A stretch of DNA of 50,040 nt, taken from a virus. How positions within the stretch are numbered: position 1 is the stretch's first letter; each line of letters opens with the position of its first letter. Positions 2,719-20,113 of the stretch are shown piece by piece. The stretch is from IMG/VR virus record IMGVR_UViG_3300028920_000096, positions 1-50,040 of that record; one strand, given 5' to 3'. The notes below the pieces were generated by a model. It did no database searches. It saw only the letters and a list, made by a program, of their open reading frames with translations, and had not been told where the DNA came from. Both the position numbers and the translations under genes were made by a program.

Positions 2719-3027
2719 ATGAGATTGCAGTGGATTAAAGTAGATGGTACCTTTGAAGTGGACAGGCGGGAGGAGCGAGCATCATTCGGCCCGTTTTTGT
2801 TTATAGTTCGTAGAATTTTTCCGGGCCGGACATATTCAGAAGTGGAATTGCAGATCAAAATTCATGTGCAGAAAACTAAGAGGACACTTGTCCCGATAAT
2901 GTTTTTTTCGCACCCGTTTGCCCGGAAGAATGTGGCAAAGGCGACGGCAGAAAGAATTTTGCAGGAGTTTTGTGTTAGTATGGAGAAAGCGGAGTGTGGA
3001 GAGAGCCGTAATGGAGCAGGAAAATGA
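2719..3027 (+). CDS. Hypothetical protein between helicase and ParB-like genes
   Basis: The 102-residue product is not recognised. It looks like a small beta-rich fold with a basic middle and no membrane segment or motif. It starts 13 bases after the helicase gene with the ribosome-binding site AAAGGAG and its stop overlaps the start of the ParB-like gene by four bases, so it belongs to the same operon. The bases and codons match its neighbours. Confidence 0.65.
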   Translation: MRLQWIKVDGTFEVDRREERASFGPFLFIVRRIFPGRTYSEVELQIKIHVQKTKRTLVPIMFFSHPFARKNVAKATAERILQEFCVSMEKAECGESRNGAGK

Positions 3028-3593
3028 AAATTAGAGACAGGGTTGTGGAAATTCGTAAGGTAAAAGCAAAAGAGCTTTTGGACAATCCAAAAAATTGGAG
3101 GAAGCATTCTAAGTACCAGAAGAGGGCTTTTCAAGGGCTTTTATCTGAAATTGGAAATGCCACAATTCCGCTGGTATACGAAACACCGGACGGGCTGATG
3201 CTTATTGATGGGCACTTGAGAAAAGAAATGCTGGGAAGTAAAACAATCCGGGTGGCCGTTCTGGATGTGACAGAGCAGGAGGCAGATAAATTGCTTGCCA
3301 CTATTGATCCTTTGACAGCGTTAGTGGATCAGGATTCGGAGGCTTTTCAGGAGCTTGTGGAACGGCTGGAATTTCAAGCGGGGGAGGTTCAGGCCTTAGT
3401 TGCGGGGGTATTGGAGAACTCTGAATTTATTTCATGGGAGGGCGAAGTAGACGCAGACCCACGTTTTGATCCTAATAAGAGAAAGGTTTCTAAATTGGTT
3501 ATAAAGTTTCCAAGAGCAAGGGAAAAGGATTTGGTTCCAAAGTTAAAGGAACTTATTGATTCATTAAATATAGAGGGTTTGTCCTATGGCTGA
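3024..3593 (+). CDS. ParB-like (ParB/Srx superfamily) domain protein, copy 1
   Basis: The 189-residue product has a ParB N-terminal-like domain in its first 110 residues. It shows the conserved start pattern (VKAKELLDNPKNWRKH at 13-28), the catalytic-type box IDGHLR at 61-66 and the closing helix EADKLLATIDPLTAL. A second copy of the same architecture lies at 6766-7422. In phages, such ParB-like domains often sit beside DNA-modifying enzymes, and some are nucleases or nucleotide-binding proteins. Here the gene overlaps the start of dpdA by eight bases, which suggests a role in base modification rather than plasmid partition (inference). There is no ParB helix-turn-helix domain; the last 70 residues are unassigned. 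Confidence 0.75.
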   Translation: MKIRDRVVEIRKVKAKELLDNPKNWRKHSKYQKRAFQGLLSEIGNATIPLVYETPDGLMLIDGHLRKEMLGSKTIRVAVLDVTEQEADKLLATIDPLTALVDQDSEAFQELVERLEFQAGEVQALVAGVLENSEFISWEGEVDADPRFDPNKRKVSKLVIKFPRAREKDLVPKLKELIDSLNIEGLSYG

Positions 3594-4467
3594 GAAAAGA
3601 TTCAAGCCGGGGATATTGATTTCATATGCGTATATTGAAAAGCAAAAGGGATTGTTTTCCAAGTTGTTGTCATATGATCCGAATAGTTATACCTTTTTTT
3701 TGGATTGCGGAGCATACTCAGCATGGAATTGTGGGATGAAAATAAATTTGAAAGATTTCGCTTTATTTGTCCGTGACATGCCAAAATTGCCGGGGATGAT
3801 TATAAGTCAGTTAGATGTTGTTTATAGTCCTGAAAAGACAAGGGACAATTTTTTTCGGTTGTTGGACATGGGATTGGATGTGAAGCCAGTCATAACAGCG
3901 GGGACAACAGAAGAAGAGATTTTAGAACTTGCCCCATATTCTGATTATTTTTTGGTGGGTGGTGTTTGGGCAATGGTCAATTCCTTGAGGGATACGGGTT
4001 ACTTGGGAAAAATAAAGCAATTGCTTCCCGGTAAGAAGATACATTGGTTTGGTTATACGAATTTGAAAGCAATTAAAACATATCGCCCCGCCAGTGTTGA
4101 TAGTTCTAGCATAGACGGGTGTTATCGTTTTGGCACAATAGAGTTTTTTTTGAATGCCCATAAAATAGGACTGACCAGAAAAAATGCACAGAACCCTATT
4201 GATTATCGGATTGTAAAGCATTTGTTGAAGATAGGGTTTACTGTGGACGAAATTAAGAAACTTAGTAAATGGGAATCATGGAGTTATAAGGATAAAGAAA
4301 GAACATTGTTGAGAATGAGTTGCGCGTCAAGATTACATGCTGGATATTTTATGCAGAAGAATTGTGGTACAATTTATTTTCAGTCAATACTTGTCCCAAA
4401 GGTTTTGCAGACAATTTTTGAAACGGTAGAGTTTTTGGAAGAACATTTTAATGAGAATGTTCTATAA
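3586..4467 (+). CDS. dpdA: DpdA-like DNA guanine transglycosylase (TGT superfamily)
   Basis: The 293-residue product resembles DpdA, the enzyme that exchanges guanine in DNA for a 7-deazaguanine base. Visible hallmarks are FLDCGAYSAW (Asp40), ISQLDVVYSPEKT (Asp77), the glycine-rich FLVGGVWAM near 122-130, and HWFGYTNLK followed by SVDSSS (Asp172). They are in the order expected of a TIM-barrel tRNA-guanine transglycosylase relative. It lacks the zinc site and C-terminal region of bacterial tRNA TGT, consistent with a DNA-acting form. It is directly followed by folE, queD and queE, which make its substrate, and preceded by a ParB-like gene. The assignment is strong from motifs plus context. 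Which of guanine's substitutes (preQ0, preQ1 or archaeosine-like) it inserts cannot be read from the sequence. Confidence 0.88.
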   Translation: MAEKRFKPGILISYAYIEKQKGLFSKLLSYDPNSYTFFLDCGAYSAWNCGMKINLKDFALFVRDMPKLPGMIISQLDVVYSPEKTRDNFFRLLDMGLDVKPVITAGTTEEEILELAPYSDYFLVGGVWAMVNSLRDTGYLGKIKQLLPGKKIHWFGYTNLKAIKTYRPASVDSSSIDGCYRFGTIEFFLNAHKIGLTRKNAQNPIDYRIVKHLLKIGFTVDEIKKLSKWESWSYKDKERTLLRMSCASRLHAGYFMQKNCGTIYFQSILVPKVLQTIFETVEFLEEHFNENVL

Positions 4468-4480
4468 AAGGAGAAGGATT

Positions 4481-5092
4481 ATGACCGGGTTTTTTGCGAA
4501 TGAAAATAAAACTTTGACAAAGGAAGAGATGGAGGAAATGCAGTCAGAATTGGAGGGGCTTTTTGCAAAAATGTTGGCTACAATGAAAATAGCTCCGGAT
4601 CATAATACAAGGGAAACTCCCGCACGAATGGCAAAAATGTATTTGGAAATTTGCCGGGGAAGATATGAGCCGGAACCAAAAGCAACGGTTTTTCCGAATA
4701 CTAATGAATTGAATGAAATTATGGTGATTGGGCCTATTGAAGTCAATTCGTTGTGTTCGCATCATTTTGTTCCAATACAGGGGGAAGTTTTTGTGGGGGT
4801 TATACCGGGGGACTTTTTGTTGGGGGCAAGTAAATTTCATCGTCTTGCAAAATGGGTTTTCGCAAGGCCACAGATTCAGGAAGAGGCAACGGTTCAATTG
4901 GCAAATATATTAGAGCAAAAATTGGGCAATGCAGAAGGATTGGCCTTGGTGGTCAGGGCAAAACATTTTTGCATGAACTGGAGAGGAGTGCAGGACAAAG
5001 ACACAGAAATGGTCACGTCAATTATGCGGGGTGTTTTCCATGACAAGCAAACGGCAAGGATGGAGTTTTTGGAACTCTTGAAAGGACACTAA
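4481..5092 (+). CDS. folE: GTP cyclohydrolase I
   Basis: FolE opens GTP to dihydroneopterin triphosphate, the first step of 7-deazaguanine synthesis. The chosen start at 4481 follows AAAGGAGAAGG and gives 203 residues; an upstream in-frame ATG at 4451 overlaps dpdA and has no ribosome-binding site. The zinc-site motif is SLCSHHFVP (Cys92, His95), and the second cysteine lies in KHFCMNWRG (Cys164). The family pattern GASKFHRLAKW is present at 115-125. The length fits the family. It lies 13 bases after dpdA and one base before queD. Confidence 0.96.
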   Translation: MTGFFANENKTLTKEEMEEMQSELEGLFAKMLATMKIAPDHNTRETPARMAKMYLEICRGRYEPEPKATVFPNTNELNEIMVIGPIEVNSLCSHHFVPIQGEVFVGVIPGDFLLGASKFHRLAKWVFARPQIQEEATVQLANILEQKLGNAEGLALVVRAKHFCMNWRGVQDKDTEMVTSIMRGVFHDKQTARMEFLELLKGH

Positions 5093-5093
5093 A

Positions 5094-5513
5094 ATGAACC
5101 ATATTTTAGAAGTAGTAAGATGGCATGACATTTCTTGTGGGCATCGTGTTTATGGGCATGAGTCAAAATGCCAGCATTTGCACGGTCATAATTACCGCAT
5201 ACATTTCACATGCAGGGCTGAATTGGATGATTTGGGAAGGGTCATTGATTTTGGCATCATAAAAGAAAAATTGTGCAAGTGGTTGGAAGAGAATTGGGAT
5301 CACAAGTTTTTGATATATCACAAAGACCCGCTGTCTGGTAAATTATTTGAACTTGACCCGGAAGGCATTTATTTTATGCCAAGCAACCCCACAGCAGAAA
5401 ATATGGCTATATTTTTGATGGAAGCCGGGGATAAAATTCTTGGCAATCCGAGTGTTCATTTGGTCAAAGTAAAGGTTGAGGAGACAGCAAAATGCGCGGC
5501 AGTATGTATGTGA
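5094..5513 (+). CDS. queD: 6-carboxytetrahydropterin synthase QueD
   Basis: QueD turns dihydroneopterin triphosphate into 6-carboxy-5,6,7,8-tetrahydropterin, the second step of the 7-deazaguanine pathway. The 139-residue product has zinc ligands His17 in DISCGHRV and His30/His32 in HLHGHNY, with the catalytic Cys26 four residues before His30. The acidic motif VKVEET near the C-terminus is the substrate-binding glutamate region of the T-fold family. The gene sits between folE and queE with overlapping or adjacent junctions, so the set is translated as an operon. Confidence 0.95.
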   Translation: MNHILEVVRWHDISCGHRVYGHESKCQHLHGHNYRIHFTCRAELDDLGRVIDFGIIKEKLCKWLEENWDHKFLIYHKDPLSGKLFELDPEGIYFMPSNPTAENMAIFLMEAGDKILGNPSVHLVKVKVEETAKCAAVCM

Positions 5514-6205
5514 GACAATATCCGATTAATGAAATTTTTTGCAGTTTTCAGGGGGAGGCAAGTTTCGCCGGAACTCCCGCTGTGTTTATTCGGACACAAG
5601 GTTGCCCCGTGGGATGTATTTTTTGTGACACGAAAGAAACATGGGATGAACAAGCAAAAAATGAAATAACAAGAGAAAAGTTATTAGAAAAAAAAGGAGA
5701 AAAGACCCCAGAATTTGCCCGGTTTACTTTGCTGGAATTGCAAACGGTAATTGCAGAAATTAGAGAAGGTGAAAAGCATGTCGTAATTACCGGGGGAGAG
5801 CCAGCGTTGTTTGATTGGACAGATTGGAAAAGTTTTCCATATAACAGAATTCAGATGGAGACAAGCGGAAGGTATCCGTTAAAAGTCCCATTAACTTGGT
5901 TTGTGACAGTTTCCCCGAAAATAGTGAACGGGGATTTATCTTTGATAAATACGGAAGCGTTGGAAAGGGCCAATGAAATTAAATGGCCCATATTAAATAA
6001 CGAAGATGTGAAAGTATTTGAAAAGGCAAGGGAGGAAGGTCTGCTTTACAGCTTCGGTGAAAGGGCGTCTTTTAATTTTCCAAAGGAAGTGTTTTTGCAT
6101 CCGATATTCGGTTCAAAGACTGCCTTGAAGTTGTCAATTAAACTGGCAAAGAAGTATGGGTATCGTATTTCTTTGCAAACGCATAAATTGGTTGGAGTGC
6201 GATAA
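5492..6205 (+). CDS. queE: 7-carboxy-7-deazaguanine synthase QueE (radical SAM)
   Basis: QueE converts 6-carboxytetrahydropterin to 7-carboxy-7-deazaguanine with a radical SAM cluster. The 237-residue product starts with the family motif around SFQGEASFAGTP, then carries the [4Fe-4S] cysteine motif CPVGCIFC (Cys38, Cys42, Cys45). The SAM-binding GGEPAL stretch follows near residue 100. The start at 5492 has GAGGAG nine bases upstream and overlaps queD by 22 bases. The product is the substrate for QueC, whose gene lies about 10 kb downstream in the head gene cluster. Confidence 0.95.
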   Translation: MRGSMYVRQYPINEIFCSFQGEASFAGTPAVFIRTQGCPVGCIFCDTKETWDEQAKNEITREKLLEKKGEKTPEFARFTLLELQTVIAEIREGEKHVVITGGEPALFDWTDWKSFPYNRIQMETSGRYPLKVPLTWFVTVSPKIVNGDLSLINTEALERANEIKWPILNNEDVKVFEKAREEGLLYSFGERASFNFPKEVFLHPIFGSKTALKLSIKLAKKYGYRISLQTHKLVGVR

Positions 6206-6211
6206 AATAAA

Positions 6212-6769
6212 ATGGAAAATAAAAAAGAAAATAAAAAAGAGGGCAGAAATGGTGCAGATTCCACGGATGTCATGAGCAATGCGGAAAAGAAAAAAAAGGG
6301 ATACTCGAAAAAGGTTACTCCGGCAAGGAGAGCCATAATTATGGAACGGAGGAAAAAGGTAGCGGCATTATATATGAGGCGGTTTACACAAGCTCAGGTC
6401 GCGGAACAATTAGGGGTAGGTCTGAGAGTTGTTGAACAAGATTTGGCATATATGAGAAAACTTTGGGCAAAAGAGGCCATGCAAAGTATGGGTACTCTGA
6501 TTGCAAGGGAATTGGCAGAAATACAGCATATCGAAAATGAAGCGGGAATGGGATATATCAGAACACAAGATATGAAGTATTTAGAACTGCGGTTAAAATG
6601 CAAGGATCGCAGGGCAAGGTTATTGGGGCTGGATGCTCCGGAGAAAATAAATCCGGAAACGGTCAAAAATATCCACGAAACGAATATAGAGGTTAATTTG
6701 CACAAGTTGTCAGAAAGCGAATTGAATTTGCTTGAGAAACTACTGGACGGAAAGGAAAATACAGAATGA
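6212..6769 (+). CDS. Helix-turn-helix protein, possible terminase small subunit
   Basis: The 185-residue product has a very basic N-terminal tail (about 1-50) and a helix-turn-helix of sigma-70 region 4 or terminase small-subunit type. The relevant segment, YMRRFTQAQVAEQLGVGLRVV, lies around residues 54-74. A long helical region rich in Arg, Lys and Glu follows. It could be the small terminase subunit, since no other candidate is seen before the large subunit at 12250. The distance of about 5.5 kb and the neighbouring ParB-like and glycosyltransferase genes make a regulatory or modification role also possible. No clear ribosome-binding site precedes 6212; an in-frame ATG at 6272 is an alternative start. 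The stop overlaps the next gene by four bases. Confidence 0.55.
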   Translation: MENKKENKKEGRNGADSTDVMSNAEKKKKGYSKKVTPARRAIIMERRKKVAALYMRRFTQAQVAEQLGVGLRVVEQDLAYMRKLWAKEAMQSMGTLIARELAEIQHIENEAGMGYIRTQDMKYLELRLKCKDRRARLLGLDAPEKINPETVKNIHETNIEVNLHKLSESELNLLEKLLDGKENTE

Positions 6770-7422
6770 AAAATTACAAAGACAGAATAATCGGGTTGGA
6801 ACGGGTGAAGGCTTCGCAATTAACTCCGCACGAAAAGAATTTTAGGCGGCACAATGATAAACAGAAACAGGCATTGGCCGGGGTTTTGAGAGAGGTGGGT
6901 TATGCCGACGCATTACTTGCTCGAAAGGACAAAAAAGGCAATCTGATTTTAATTGACGGACATTTGAGAGCAGAGATTTCCCCGGATCAGGAAGTCCCGG
7001 TCTTAGTTTTGGACGTGGATGAAAAAGAAGCAGATTATATTCTGGCGACTTTGGATAATTTGGCGGGACTGGCAGACACAGACGAAGGGGCTTTTGAGGA
7101 CCTTGTGATGGATTTAGAAGTCCAGAGCAAGGTGGTTAGGGAAATGCTGTTGGGTATTTTTGACGATACGGAAACAGTGGACGAAAAAACAATCCCCGTG
7201 GACAAGGGGGAATTGTTTGGGAAAGCCCTACAATTAAAGCCCCGCAGGGAATATGTTGTGGTGGTTTGTGAAAACGAGCAGGAGTGGAATTTATTAAAAG
7301 AATTCTTAGAATTGAAAGACACGCGCAAGGGGGGACAAAAGAAAAAGGCCCCATTTGAAACCATAGACACGGAACGGGTGGTCACAGCTTCTCGTTTATT
7401 CGCGGCATTGGAGGATGATTAA
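6766..7422 (+). CDS. ParB-like (ParB/Srx superfamily) domain protein, copy 2
   Basis: The 218-residue product repeats the layout of the protein at 3024-3593. It has the start VKASQLTPHEKNFRRH (14-29), the box LIDGHLR (62-68), then EADYILATLDNLAGLADTD, which parallels the first copy closely. The C-terminal third is unrelated to the first copy and ends in a Lys-rich stretch. It overlaps the HTH gene by four bases and abuts the glycosyltransferase gene with no gap, so these three are one translational unit. Partnership with base modification is inferred from gene order. Confidence 0.75.
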   Translation: MKNYKDRIIGLERVKASQLTPHEKNFRRHNDKQKQALAGVLREVGYADALLARKDKKGNLILIDGHLRAEISPDQEVPVLVLDVDEKEADYILATLDNLAGLADTDEGAFEDLVMDLEVQSKVVREMLLGIFDDTETVDEKTIPVDKGELFGKALQLKPRREYVVVVCENEQEWNLLKEFLELKDTRKGGQKKKAPFETIDTERVVTASRLFAALEDD

Positions 7423-8142
7423 ATGTTAGTGGCAATTTTAAGCTCAGGCAGGGTAGGGAAAACGACCACGGACAAATTATTGCCATTTGCCACAATGTTT
7501 GTTCCGGCAAAGGAGGTGGCAGAATACAAGGCCCATATTAAATGTGACAAGCTGGTGGAGGTACCGAATAAAATAAAGGGGGTGGCGGCAACCAAGAATT
7601 ATATTATTGAAAAAACACAAGAGGAGGAAATAGTATTCGCAGAGGACAACGTTAAAAGCTCCGGTTATATTGAGTTTTTGGATGATTTTACAAAAGCCCA
7701 TAAAATGACTGGGGCAGAATTATACATGGAGTTTGTTAAATTATTTCAAGTGGCACGGGGGATGAAATATAGGATGTGGAGCATTCCCGAATCCCGGTCT
7801 GCAAAGGACTGGATACCACAAAGACCCCTGCAATGGCATCCGAAATTAGCAGGGGGGATTGTGGGATTTTTGAGAGGCACTGGGGCAAGGTACGATGAAG
7901 GGTTTTTGCTTCATACGGAAACTGAATTTCTGCTTCGGGCTTTGGTTGAGGATGGTGGTGTGGTTGGGGCCAATTATCTTTATTGGGAGAATTTCCATTG
8001 GACGGATGCAGGGGGTGTTTCACAATACCGGACAAAAGAAAATGAATGGGATTGTGCCCAGCAGATGATGGTGAAGTATCCCGGTCTAGTCCATTGTTCC
8101 ATGGACGGGGGAATTAAATACAAGTTAACTTTGAAGACATAA
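7423..8142 (+). CDS. Glycosyltransferase-like protein resembling TET-associated glycosyltransferases
   Basis: The 239-residue product follows the pattern I associate with the phage TET-associated glycosyltransferase (TAGT) family. An N-terminal beta strand runs into SSGRVGKTTTDKLLP; FVPAKEVAEY follows at 26-35; GVAATKNYIIE at 53-63 and an acidic AEDN at 73-76 stand where a GT-A enzyme has its metal-binding DxD. The C-terminal half has TETEFLLRAL, then GGVSQYRTKE and KYPGLV, also as in that family. Such enzymes add sugars to modified bases in phage DNA. Here no TET oxygenase is seen, and the modified base nearby would be a 7-deazaguanine. The family call is from memory of motifs, not a search. 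The GKTTT string is not treated as a P-loop. Confidence 0.6.
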   Translation: MLVAILSSGRVGKTTTDKLLPFATMFVPAKEVAEYKAHIKCDKLVEVPNKIKGVAATKNYIIEKTQEEEIVFAEDNVKSSGYIEFLDDFTKAHKMTGAELYMEFVKLFQVARGMKYRMWSIPESRSAKDWIPQRPLQWHPKLAGGIVGFLRGTGARYDEGFLLHTETEFLLRALVEDGGVVGANYLYWENFHWTDAGGVSQYRTKENEWDCAQQMMVKYPGLVHCSMDGGIKYKLTLKT

Positions 8143-8156
8143 TTCAGGCAGAAAAG

Positions 8157-8166
8157 TCTATACTAT
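8157..8166 (+). promoter_or_regulatory. TCTATACTAT element, probable -10 region (copy 1)
   Basis: The ten bases TCTATACTAT occur here and at 37986, 43190 and 47061, each in a gap before a gene. This copy ends 19 bases before the ATG at 8186, with AAGGAGG between. TATACT is close to a sigma70 -10 box; the best -35-like bases are AAGACA, 19 bases upstream. It probably starts a transcript for the small-gene cluster. Confidence 0.5.
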
Positions 8167-8185
8167 ATCAAAGGAGGCTTTGGAA

Positions 8186-8500
8186 ATGGATGGTTTGAGT
8201 ATTACTTCAAGTGTTGGACATGGACAGGCAAGCCCCCCAAAAAATATGAAAGGAAAGTGGATTTTTGAAGTCAAGGGGACTGGGAACATAGTGGAGGTTA
8301 CTCCAAAGGTTTTGGATGACGGGAGCATTTTTTTTGAAACAAGGGAAACGTTTATTCGCACAAAATATGAGGATGGAAAATTCAAAGCAAATGGACGGGC
8401 CTGTTACAGTATAGGTCTTTTTGCTACGGGGGAGGAAGTTTTGGAGAATGCCATACGGGGGAGGGCCGGGGTATGGCGACCTATCATCCAGACAAAGTAA
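8186..8500 (+). CDS. Hypothetical protein, first of the small-gene cluster
   Basis: The 104-residue product is not recognised. The start at 8186 was chosen because AAGGAGG lies eight bases upstream; the earlier TTG at 8180 would be too close. The predicted protein is beta-rich with no membrane segment. It is the first gene after the promoter-like TCTATACTAT element and its 3' end overlaps the next gene by 28 bases. Confidence 0.65.
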   Translation: MDGLSITSSVGHGQASPPKNMKGKWIFEVKGTGNIVEVTPKVLDDGSIFFETRETFIRTKYEDGKFKANGRACYSIGLFATGEEVLENAIRGRAGVWRPIIQTK

Positions 8501-10230: not shown

Positions 10231-10622
10231 CTACTTTCACGGTATTTGAAAACTATGAGGGGAAATTGAAAGCAGTCCCGAAGGGGGCCAGTATGGGGGG
10301 TGCGCTTTTCTCTGCAATATGGGCTGTCTCAGTGGGGCTATATGTTCCGGCAATTGCATGGCTGGCAGGGTATTTAATAGTCAATGCGTATGATTCATGG
10401 GCGGGGCCTGTGGTTGACACAGGGGACGGGTTCCCGATATATCATACGTTTTTCTATGGGATAGTTATGTGTGTGGTATTCGCGGCCTTTGGTAATCAGT
10501 GGCTCGAAAAAGAATTGCTCAGGAAGGGATATATTCGCCGGGGGACAATCAATACGAAGAGCAAGGGACAGGCTTGCGCCCTTTACAAGCAATGGAAAGA
10601 TTCGGTGAAAAAAAATGATTGA
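10227..10622 (+). CDS. Small membrane protein
   Basis: The 131-residue product has three likely hydrophobic helices: about residues 25-45 (ALFSAIWAVSVGLYVPAIAW), 46-56, and 72-90 (TFFYGIVMCVVFAAF). It then has a basic C-terminal tail of about 40 residues that would face the cytoplasm. It is coupled to both neighbours by overlaps. No homologous family is recognised. Its position among early-type small genes suggests host-membrane modulation rather than lysis (inference). Confidence 0.6.
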   Translation: MTTFTVFENYEGKLKAVPKGASMGGALFSAIWAVSVGLYVPAIAWLAGYLIVNAYDSWAGPVVDTGDGFPIYHTFFYGIVMCVVFAAFGNQWLEKELLRKGYIRRGTINTKSKGQACALYKQWKDSVKKND

Positions 10623-11241
10623 AAAAACTAAAGTAGCTCAGGTTTTCACAGAAATTTATAAGCACAATAAATGGGGAGGCGACGAAAGTGCTTCCGGGAA
10701 AGGTAGCGGCACATTGGCAACGGAAATTCTTAGAGCGAGGTTGCCTAAATTTCTCAAGAATTTAGGAATTCATTCAATGTTGGATGTACCTTGCGGGGAT
10801 TTCTTTTGGATGAATCAAATGTTAAAAGACCCCGACATGCAGGGCATAAGTTATGTAGGCGGGGATATTGTGGAGGAAATAATTGCCTCGAATCGTTCCA
10901 AGTATCAGCAGACTTTTGTACAGATGGATATTCTACAACACCTAATAAGAAGTGCTGATTTGATTTTTTGCAGGGATTGTCTGGTATATTTTTCTAATCA
11001 GGACATATTTAGGGCCATATTGAACTTTAGATTGTCAAGAAGCAAGTATCTTTTGACAACGAATTTCTTTAGACCAGAACAAGCCCCAAATATCCAGACT
11101 GGCAACGGGTGGAGGCCCCTGAATTTATGCCTGGAGCCTTTTAATTTCCCCGTACCATTAAAAGTAATTCCAGAGGGGAATAAAGAGAAGGGTTTTGAGG
11201 ACAAGGCAATGGCATTGTGGAAAATTGCGGACATATATTAG
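10615..11241 (+). CDS. Class I SAM-dependent methyltransferase
   Basis: The 208-residue product has methyltransferase motif I as LDVPCGDFFWM (56-66), a second acidic strand end in YVGGDIV, and the segment FCRDCLVYFS, followed by KYLLTTNFF and NLCLEPF. These together match a family of class I methyltransferases often found with glycosyltransferase and surface-polysaccharide genes. The family's N-terminal pattern (IYKHNKWGGDESASGKGS) is also present. The substrate is unknown: it could act on a sugar or on a modified base. It lies 13 bases before the QueF-like gene, so a role in base modification is worth testing. The gene overlaps the membrane-protein gene by eight bases. Confidence 0.8.
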   Translation: MIEKTKVAQVFTEIYKHNKWGGDESASGKGSGTLATEILRARLPKFLKNLGIHSMLDVPCGDFFWMNQMLKDPDMQGISYVGGDIVEEIIASNRSKYQQTFVQMDILQHLIRSADLIFCRDCLVYFSNQDIFRAILNFRLSRSKYLLTTNFFRPEQAPNIQTGNGWRPLNLCLEPFNFPVPLKVIPEGNKEKGFEDKAMALWKIADIY

Positions 11242-11254
11242 GAGGAAAATTAAA

Positions 11255-11599
11255 ATGGACAGAATACAGTTCCAGAGAAAAGCAAATCCTGAAACAGACA
11301 TTTTCATAAGTTATGGGAGAATAGCTCCATTTTATAATATATGCAAAGTGGCGAATATAAGGGAGGAATTTAATATAACAATGGAATACATTCCGGATAA
11401 ATACTTGTTGGAGGTGGGGACATATCGCAAGTATTTTCAGCAATTGTTTAATTTGTATATAGAAGAATTGGTGGAGGATGTTTTCAGTCATTTGTGGGAG
11501 TTATTGGAGCCGAAGTATTTGAAGGTGACAATTCATGTGGATGACAAAAATTTAACTTATTGGGACGTTACAATGCAGAAAACAAAGGAGAAAAATTAA
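11255..11599 (+). CDS. Divergent QueF-like T-fold protein, possibly amidinotransferase-type (QueF-L)
   Basis: The 114-residue product aligns by eye with QueF, the preQ0 reductase. NICKVANIREEFNITMEYIP (28-47) corresponds to the active-site block LCPxTGQPDF and following strand, so Cys30 matches the nucleophile, although one residue is inserted before the acidic Glu38. In QueF the next motif E-S-K-S-x-K binds NADPH; here it is EVGTYRKY (53-60), which lacks the lysine and serine pattern. The FHE motif is also altered. Loss of the NADPH motif with the cysteine kept is the known feature of crenarchaeal QueF-L, which amidinates preQ0 to archaeosine. Start chosen at 11255 because GGAGGAAAA lies upstream. 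Confidence 0.65.
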   Translation: MDRIQFQRKANPETDIFISYGRIAPFYNICKVANIREEFNITMEYIPDKYLLEVGTYRKYFQQLFNLYIEELVEDVFSHLWELLEPKYLKVTIHVDDKNLTYWDVTMQKTKEKN

Positions 11600-16064: not shown

Positions 16065-16733
16065 ATGTTTATGAAAAAAGATTCAGTAGTGGTTTTGCTC
16101 AGTGGTGGAATGGATTCTGTGACGGCATTATATGATTCCGTCGAAAAGCATTCCGTGGGTTGTTGTATTAGTTTTGACTACGGCTCCAAGCATAATGAAC
16201 GCGAAATTCATTATGCAAAATACCACAGCAAAAGGCTACTGATCCCGCATGTCACAATTCCGTTGGCATTTATTGGACAGTTTTTCAAGTCTAATTTGCT
16301 AAAGTCAGGTGGGGAAATACCGGACGGGCATTATGAAGACAAAAGTATGCAAAAAACAGTGGTGCCATTTCGTAATGGGATCATGTTGTCCATTGCGGCG
16401 GGGTTTGCGGAAAGTGCAGGGGCAGGGGGAATTGTGATTGCGGCTCATGCCGGGGATCATGCAATATATCCGGATTGCAGGGAAGAATTTATGTTTGCCA
16501 TGGCCTCCGCAATTGCCACGGGGACATATGCGGGCATAGAAGTGATTCGACCATTTATAAACATTGGCAAGGAAGGCATTGCCCAGAGAGGGGCCGAATT
16601 GGGAGTTGATTATAGCAAAACGTGGTCATGTTACAAGGGAGGGGAATTACATTGTGGGACTTGTGGCACATGCGTGGAAAGAAAGGAGGCGTTTGAACTG
16701 GCAGGAATCAAAGACCCGACACAGTACATTTGA
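16065..16733 (+). CDS. queC: 7-cyano-7-deazaguanine synthase QueC
   Basis: QueC makes preQ0 from 7-carboxy-7-deazaguanine with ATP and ammonia. The 222-residue product has the P-loop SGGMDS (13-18), FRNGIMLSIAAGFAE, IAAHAGDHAIYPDCRE, and the zinc-binding tail with Cys189, Cys197, Cys200 and Cys203. No glutamine amidotransferase domain is fused, so it is ordinary QueC rather than the GAT-QueC of phage 9g type. The gene is away from the other que genes, between a head gene and the scaffold gene; its stop codon overlaps the -35 box of the promoter for the capsid genes. Confidence 0.95.
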   Translation: MFMKKDSVVVLLSGGMDSVTALYDSVEKHSVGCCISFDYGSKHNEREIHYAKYHSKRLLIPHVTIPLAFIGQFFKSNLLKSGGEIPDGHYEDKSMQKTVVPFRNGIMLSIAAGFAESAGAGGIVIAAHAGDHAIYPDCREEFMFAMASAIATGTYAGIEVIRPFINIGKEGIAQRGAELGVDYSKTWSCYKGGELHCGTCGTCVERKEAFELAGIKDPTQYI

Positions 16734-18562: not shown

Positions 18563-20113
18563 GTGAAGATCGGAGTATATTGTAGTGGGGTCAAGACAGT
18601 AAAAAATCTGCCTTGCCCGAAACAAGCGGCGATTCTAAACTACCGGAACCCTTCGTTCTGGAGAAAATCAGATTTAGAAAATTTTGATGTGGTCATAGTT
18701 GATCCGGAAACAAAAAACAGTGTTGCAATTATTGCGGCCTACGAGGAAAGAAAAGTCCCCGTGGGCCAGTTTACTTTGGGCGGGGCCGTGCAATATGGGG
18801 AAATGAATTTGTCTCAGGATTATGGCAAGTTTCGGCAGGGCATGTGGTCTGGTTCCCCCTGTTTAATTATTGGGGGAGGGCCGTCTGTCAAGATTTATGA
18901 GGAGGAAGTTAGGAAATTTATTTCTCAATTTCCGTCCATCGGCATAAATCGGGTATTTGAAACTTTTAATTGTGACGTGGCCTTTGGTACAGACCGCAGA
19001 TGGTTGCAATGGATAGTTTCTGGACAATATGGGAAGGAAGCGCAAAGGGCTTGGAAGAAATTCCGGGGGATTCGGGCCATTTTGCGGGGAAGCAAGTGGC
19101 CTGTTCCCGGAGGCATGGAGGTTTTCGACCCATATCGAAATGCGAATGAATTTTCCCCTAATTTACATGAGGGACTGACACGTTCCAGCAATAGCGGAAT
19201 CCCTGCAATAAATTTGGCAATCCTTTTGGGGGCGAATCCTATTTATTTGATTGGCTTTGACAGCAAGCCCACAGAAAATGGTTTGCAGAATCATTTCCAT
19301 TCCGGGCATCCAGAAACGCAAAAAGACTCAGTGTTTAATAAATTCATAGAGGCATTTGACAAGTTTGCGAAAAAGGTTCCGGAAAATGTGGAGGTGATTA
19401 ACCTATATCCAGCCTCCGGAATTAAAAGTTTCGCTTTTGGAAAGTGGGCAGATATTGAGTATCCGGCTCCAAAGACCCCGCCCCCTACTCAAGACCCCCC
19501 GAAGGCTCCAAAACCCCCGGAGAATCCAGTGGGGAATTTTGTAGAGGCAGAAAAAATTGTCTTTGTGACAGCTTTTACTCCGGATTATGAGCCACTTGCC
19601 GTTCAATTGCAGACGGACTTTGAAAAATGGGGTTTGCCCCATGAAATGATCCCATTGGAAGACCTTGGAAAATGGGAGCATAATTGCAATTTGAAGCCTT
19701 GGGTTCTGAAATGTATTCGGGAGGAATTTCCGAATAAAATTATAGTGTGGGTGGATGCGGATGCTCGAATTCTAAAGTTCCCGGAAAAGATCGTTTCATT
19801 AAAAGCCGGGGAATTTGACATAGCGTACCACGAATTAGGTTCGGAATTACTTTCGGGCACTTTGGTATTTTCTCCGACAGAAGCGGCAAATAGTATTTTG
19901 GATCAGTGGGAGGAAGAGGTTACCAAGTTCCCGGATGTATGGGATCAAAAGTCTTTACAGAAAATTTTGAAGAAGCAATCCAAGGTGGTCAAATATAATC
20001 TGCCTGTGGAGTATTGCAAGATTTTTGATAATAAGAAACAGAAGTGCAAAACTCCGGTCATTCAGCATATGCAACAAAGCCGAGTGCGCAAAAAAAGGGA
20101 AAAGGTTTCATGA
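18563..20113 (+). CDS. Two-domain protein: DUF115/MptE-like domain fused to GT-A glycosyltransferase domain
   Basis: The 516-residue product starts with GTG and a GGAGGG site. Residues about 90-290 have the pattern CLIIGGGPSV, SIGINRVFE, VAFGTDRRW, and NPIYLIGFD. This is the DUF115/6-hydroxymethylpterin pyrophosphokinase MptE-like family, also found in Maf glycosyltransferases and archaeal pterin enzymes. A Pro-rich linker (about 303-325) follows, then a second domain with KIVFVTAFTP, KPWVLKCIREE, and the acidic WVDADA motif near residue 397. That motif is typical of the metal site of nucleotide-sugar transferases. The gene follows the major capsid gene, so it may glycosylate capsid or the modified base. 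Both roles are inferences. Confidence 0.7.
   Translation: MKIGVYCSGVKTVKNLPCPKQAAILNYRNPSFWRKSDLENFDVVIVDPETKNSVAIIAAYEERKVPVGQFTLGGAVQYGEMNLSQDYGKFRQGMWSGSPCLIIGGGPSVKIYEEEVRKFISQFPSIGINRVFETFNCDVAFGTDRRWLQWIVSGQYGKEAQRAWKKFRGIRAILRGSKWPVPGGMEVFDPYRNANEFSPNLHEGLTRSSNSGIPAINLAILLGANPIYLIGFDSKPTENGLQNHFHSGHPETQKDSVFNKFIEAFDKFAKKVPENVEVINLYPASGIKSFAFGKWADIEYPAPKTPPPTQDPPKAPKPPENPVGNFVEAEKIVFVTAFTPDYEPLAVQLQTDFEKWGLPHEMIPLEDLGKWEHNCNLKPWVLKCIREEFPNKIIVWVDADARILKFPEKIVSLKAGEFDIAYHELGSELLSGTLVFSPTEAANSILDQWEEEVTKFPDVWDQKSLQKILKKQSKVVKYNLPVEYCKIFDNKKQKCKTPVIQHMQQSRVRKKREKVS

Follow-up and report, generated by a model that had tools for sequence, protein, structure and literature searches.

The QueF-like gene and the deazaguanine pathway

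The window, that is, the whole stretch of 50,040 nucleotides that was analysed, derives from a tailed phage and carries FolE, QueD, QueE, QueC and DpdA, the full preQ0 pathway together with DpdA. The best match of its terminase was to a Methanomicrobiales virus (37%), and all of the terminase matches were distant. The genes and signals considered here are as follows.

3024..3593, + strand: ParB-like protein, directly upstream of dpdA
3586..4467, + strand: DpdA-type DNA guanine transglycosylase (phrog_887), with the catalytic Asp motifs LDCGAY and VDSSS both present
4451..5092, + strand: FolE, GTP cyclohydrolase I (Pfam match)
5094..5513, + strand: QueD (PF01242)
5492..6205, + strand: QueE-type radical SAM protein (PF04055 just under the cut-off; homology to QueE of other cassettes)
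10615..11241, + strand: class I SAM methyltransferase (phrog_3382), directly upstream of the QueF-like gene; its link to the base is unproven
11240..11245, + strand: Shine-Dalgarno sequence AGGAGG of the QueF-like gene, overlapping the stop of the methyltransferase gene
11255..11599, + strand: QueF-like gene, 114 aa, NADPH signature lost (ATG at 11255, stop at 11599)
16065..16733, + strand: QueC, 222 aa, no GAT domain

Two further phage contigs encode homologs of the QueF-like protein (41% and 28% identity), and therefore 11255-11599 is a real gene. The score of the protein against Pfam PF14489 was 23 bits (E 9.8e-5), which falls short of the curated cut-off of 27.3, and its PHROG match was phrog_5949, labelled 'GTP cyclohydrolase' (E 5.5e-6). 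Among PDB sequences, QueF-L (5jyx) was the best match (E 0.0017), followed by B. subtilis QueF. An AF2 model built on the phage homologs showed a T-fold, with a mean pLDDT of 88.2 and a pTM of 0.82. Foldseek ranked B. subtilis QueF first, and the target-normalised TM was highest for QueF-L (about 0.84). The Z scores from VIA-align were 15.2 to QueF, 14.3 to QueF-L (rmsd 1.9 over 104 residues of 5jyx) and about 14 to GTP cyclohydrolase I. Because these values are similar, the fold alone identifies a T-fold without specifying the enzyme. GTP cyclohydrolase was rejected as the identity of the protein, since FolE is encoded separately by the phage and it is QueF and QueF-L that the sequence matches. 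By hhalign, QueF-L had no edge over QueF; these scores do not discriminate the two because the QueF set is more diverse. From the matches and the model, the product is a predicted T-fold protein of the QueF/QueF-L superfamily. The QueF-like assignment of an earlier note on this DNA is supported by these results, and the structure prediction proposed there gave a T-fold (pLDDT 88).

The catalytic Asp motifs of DpdA are conserved across ten phage DpdAs. No GAT domain was found in the 50-kb window, a record that is possibly a fragment, and the same holds for the ArcS-type domain (DUF5591, which we take to be part of ArcS), for which three archaeal control genomes were positive. The suggestion in the earlier note that the route differs from that of the GAT-QueC of phage 9g agrees with this result.

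Two ParB-like paralogs, 42% identical, are present in the window (3024-3593 and 6766-7422). The product of 7423-8142 is similar to the TET-associated (TAGT-type) and beta-glucosyl-HMC-alpha-glucosyltransferase families (PF20691 below the cut-off, phrog_842), so glycosylation of a DNA base is a further possible activity of the phage. Among the structural genes, 18563-20113 encodes a protein of 516 aa that combines a sialyltransferase-like part (phrog_4603) with a nucleotide-diphospho-sugar transferase part (PF03407).

Active-site residues and the NADPH motif

Residues were compared with those of 21 motif-intact QueFs, including the Dp-1 and HVTV-1 proteins, and 14 Thermoproteales-type archaeal QueF-L proteins, using the residue roles described in PMC5372742 and PMC5485725. 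The relevant positions in the gene are the following.

11342..11344, + strand: Cys30 codon, aligned with QueF Cys55 and QueF-L Cys21 (thioimide nucleophile)
11363..11365, + strand: Glu37 codon, at the position of the QueF general acid Asp62
11411..11431, + strand: EVGTYRK, in place of the NADPH-binding ESKSxKL and aligned with A-I-E-E-F-K-K of archaeal QueF-L
11462..11464, + strand: Glu70 codon, aligned with the preQ0-anchoring Glu97 of QueF

The earlier note had put Cys30 at the position of the QueF nucleophile, and the ungapped alignment to Cys55 confirmed it. Cys occupies this position in all 21 QueFs, all 14 archaeal QueF-L proteins and the window protein, and the spacing from Cys30 to YIP equals that of B. 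subtilis QueF with no gaps. The residue after the Cys, Pro in QueF-L, is Lys in the window protein. The Glu97 position is likewise Glu in all 21 QueFs, all 14 QueF-L proteins and the window protein, and the Glu70 column was the sole invariant one in a 19-row alignment. At the Asp62 position, Asp was found in 35 of 35 QueF and QueF-L proteins, and Glu in the window protein and both of its phage homologs; this replacement is unique to the window-type clade among the sequences compared.

The NADPH motif E-S-K-S-x-K is replaced by EVGTYRKY, as the earlier note had stated. Only Glu78 is kept (E53); S79, K80, S81 and K83 are changed to Val, Gly, Thr and Arg, respectively, and the K80 position is Gly, Val or Cys across the three window-type members. 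E-[SL]-K-x-x-K is kept by all of the motif-intact QueFs (21/21), as are K80, K83 and the Arg of the downstream Arg-Gly-Gly (RGG) taken singly (21/21 each). Neither the motif nor K80 occurs in the archaeal QueF-L proteins (0/14 for both), and the RGG Arg is absent in all three window-type members. At the motif position, the three members have EVGTYRK, DIVDYRK and DICDYRK, versus AIEEFKK in P. calidifontis QueF-L; on its letters, this predicted helix segment resembles most QueF-L in its aromatic-basic-basic pattern. The Glu37 replacement, the loss of the RGG Arg and a loop before Glu70 that is shorter by two residues had escaped the earlier note. That note also reported an altered FHE motif. The change is real, the window protein reading YIE with Ile in place of His96, but it is not diagnostic. 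In the 21 motif-intact QueFs, the His96 position is H in 10, G in 6, C in 3, I in 1 and Q in 1, and the adjoining Glu is kept in 21/21. Because of this variability, the FHE change carries no weight, and it was rejected as evidence. A protein is called QueF when it has Cys55, Asp62, Glu97 and the motif E(S/L)K(S/A)hK(L/Y)(Y/F/W) (PMC5372742). Since Asp62 and the motif are missing, the window protein is not a QueF by this definition.

Relatives and their cassettes

As a direct query, the QueF-like protein gave no matches in phage records or viral contigs, and the window DpdA and FolE gave none in viral contigs. Relatives were reached by scanning viral contigs with the window QueC, which gave 80 loci. 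A homolog 41% identical to the QueF-like protein was found in L009 (IMGVR_UViG_3300033463_003866), and a truncated one in L093 (IMGVR_UViG_3300028832_002718). As the truncated L093 copy does not reach its Cys, only two members show this residue; Glu37, Glu70 and YRK are kept in both homologs. The gene order in L009 is ParB-like, ParB-like, DpdA, QueF-like, QueC, QueD, QueE, FolE, and that in L093 is QueF-like, QueC, QueD, QueE, FolE, followed by terminase-type genes. The slot between dpdA and queC is empty in four sister cassettes (L004, L006, L010 and L013), and three others (L012, L014 and L016) have a canonical QueF gene immediately 5' of queC. This slot exchange beside queC is good evidence that the QueF-like gene is the tailoring step of the pathway.

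The ParB-like pair of L009 lies at 7064-7645 and 7645-8187, and in the window and L009 alike one ParB-like gene immediately precedes dpdA. In Funsized, Mufasa8, L013 and L036, too, ParB-like genes are found next to dpdA or its cassette. The encoded proteins may be DpdA partners.

A profile of the three window-type members gave no matches in bacterial and archaeal genomes under a strict pattern filter. In a midpoint-rooted tree of about 85 columns, the three proteins formed their own clade (100/100 versus the rest), outside QueF and archaeal QueF-L; with so few columns and such a root, the tree does not place this clade relative to QueF and QueF-L, and we make no claim on its origin. In the same tree, a second kind of phage QueF-L-type protein, encoded at 4287-4622 of L036 (IMGVR_UViG_3300009502_002607) directly before dpdA and a ParB-like gene, grouped with archaeal QueF-L with weak support. 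It has lost the NADPH motif (IEVGSLLQYL) and kept Asp62 and His-Glu, and these residues make it a cleaner candidate for an archaeal-type QueF-L that forms dG+. Genomes of the Pyrobaculum phylum encode QueF homologs (L104, L108, L113 and L119) with E-L-x-S-L-R-E-Y/W-L, which have neither motif and fall between QueF and QueF-L. A further match, in L126, was a false one to a capsid-like protein.

Proposed chemistry and comparison with known systems

QueF and QueF-L have thioimide formation in common and differ in the attacker, which is the NADPH hydride in the former and ammonia in the latter; QueF-L uses a conserved Asp as acid/base, and turns over preQ0-tRNA only, not the free base (PMC5485725). 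The window protein retains the Cys and the preQ0 anchor without the NADPH elements, and a non-reductive end of the reaction is therefore expected. We propose, with about an even chance of being right, a Cys-thioimide enzyme that ends in amidination to dG+ and not in reduction. The T-fold enzyme would work like archaeal QueF-L. Cys30 would attack the nitrile of preQ0, either as the free base or already put in DNA by DpdA, to form the thioimide, with Glu70 anchoring the base and Glu37 acting as acid/base in place of the usual Asp. The NADPH site being gone, the thioimide would not be reduced, and free ammonia would resolve it to the formamidine, giving the archaeosine base (dG+) in the phage DNA, which might thereby be protected from restriction. 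To our knowledge, ammonia is the only known alternative to hydride in T-fold QueF/QueF-L chemistry; this favours dG+, and water is the main rival.

Amidination is favoured by the fold, the residue alignment, the absence of the NADPH motif and of the RGG Arg, the resemblance of the replacing segment to QueF-L, the motif kept in the dPreQ1-linked phage QueFs, a complete pathway to preQ0 with DpdA, the lack of GAT and ArcS-type domains in the window, and the place of the gene between dpdA and queC in L009. Against it stand the Asp to Glu change in all three members, C-K for C-P, the clade apart from archaeal QueF-L, the lack of any edge for QueF-L by hhalign, the presence of the Cys in only the two members that reach it, and the restriction of QueF-L to preQ0-tRNA. 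The archaeosine-like base that the earlier note had proposed through a QueF-L-type route is hence upheld in part: the family, the Cys, the motif loss and the preQ0 pathway with DpdA stand, whereas dG+ itself is what we infer, and the separate clade and the Glu for Asp set the protein apart from archaeal QueF-L.

That phages with DpdA and QueF-L make dG+ is a published idea, proposed by Hutinet et al. in 2019, who could not separate phage QueF and QueF-L by sequence; when DNA was measured, that of Dp-1 contained dPreQ1, and in that of HVTV-1 dPreQ1 predominated over traces of dG+; phage proteins called QueF-L by HHpred went with dPreQ1 (PMC6884629). In our alignment, the Dp-1 and HVTV-1 proteins keep the NADPH motif, which fits the rule that motif loss goes with non-reduction. 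The motif-less members are the new part: no description of a phage QueF homolog without the motif was found in the literature covered, to which a 2023 paper on further phage deazaguanines did not belong. In the window-type members the NADPH signature is absent outright, with only the acidic residue at Glu78 and the basic one at K83 remaining, and they are therefore a natural test of the phage QueF-L-type route to dG+, and also of what makes a single T-fold reduce in one case and amidinate in another.

The same Cys-thioimide start could be resolved by water, in which case a nitrile hydratase or nitrilase would yield 7-amido- or 7-carboxy-7-deazaguanine (dADG or dCDG) in the phage DNA. Loss of the NADPH site is equally expected here, the clade-unique Glu could reflect a different chemistry, and dADG is already known as a phage base (PMC6884629). 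The helix segment resembles that of QueF-L, which speaks against hydrolysis, and we consider it unlikely. We know of no T-fold nitrile hydratase or nitrilase of such a kind. A nitrile reductase that still makes preQ1 through a rewired NADPH site is rather less probable again: the residues kept at Glu78 and K83 and the dPreQ1 found with HHpred-called QueF-L proteins would suit it, but none of the three members has K80 or the RGG Arg, and S79 and S81 are replaced as well, whereas K80, K83 and the Arg are present in all 21 motif-intact QueFs, both dPreQ1-linked phage proteins among them. There is a slim chance that another amine or partner serves as the nucleophile, or that the product is passed to the methyltransferase or glycosyltransferase encoded nearby; in either case the base would be a 7-deazaguanine not described so far. 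The class I methyltransferase gene directly upstream and the phrog_842/TAGT-type DNA glycosyltransferase gene at 7423-8142 would suit this, but the search of the other QueC loci, a set with L009 and L036 but without L093, gave no homolog of either, which leaves a link to the QueF-like gene unsupported, and likewise a direct one between the methyltransferase and the pathway. A T-fold protein without catalysis, retained to bind a partner such as FolE, QueD or DpdA, is just as improbable, since for all its shortness and several active-site changes the protein keeps the Cys (two members) and the substrate Glu (three members) at 28-41% identity between phages.

The window-type proteins would tentatively, at somewhat less than an even chance, represent a third lineage of the QueF superfamily, apart from reductive QueF and archaeal QueF-L, in which a Cys-Glu-Glu site without NADPH turns preQ0 in phage DNA into archaeosine or another non-reduced base. 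If so, this could be the first T-fold enzyme known to act on DNA.

Archaeal QueF-L, the archaeosine synthase (P. calidifontis, PDB 5jyx/5k0p), shares with the window protein the T-fold, the length (109 versus 114 aa), the Cys and Glu in register, the lack of the NADPH motif and of RGG, and a similar aromatic-basic-basic segment. It differs in being only 17% identical and in a separate clade, and the window protein has Glu for the Asp acid/base, C-K for C-P, Ile for the His before the Glu, and a two-residue deletion. Furthermore, archaeal QueF-L serves archaeal tRNA, whereas the window gene sits in a phage DNA-modification cassette. Unimodular QueF (B. subtilis 4f8b) and the phage QueFs (Dp-1, HVTV-1, phiSM, Funsized and Mufasa8) have the T-fold and the Cys and Glu97 equivalents in common with it, and the phage QueFs also have preQ0 genes nearby and, in several phages, DpdA; the window protein is unlike QueF in lacking the E(S/L)K(S/A)hK(L/Y) motif and the RGG Arg and in having Glu for the catalytic Asp. 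The GAT-QueC route of phage 9g and the ArcS route of Vibrio phage nt-1 likewise lead to dG+ from FolE, QueD, QueE, QueC and DpdA (PMC6884629), but neither a GAT nor an ArcS-type domain accompanies these genes in the window. The L036 protein is, like the window protein, phage-borne, motif-less and adjacent to dpdA and a ParB-like gene, and it differs in keeping Asp62 and His-Glu and in its weakly supported grouping with archaeal QueF-L.
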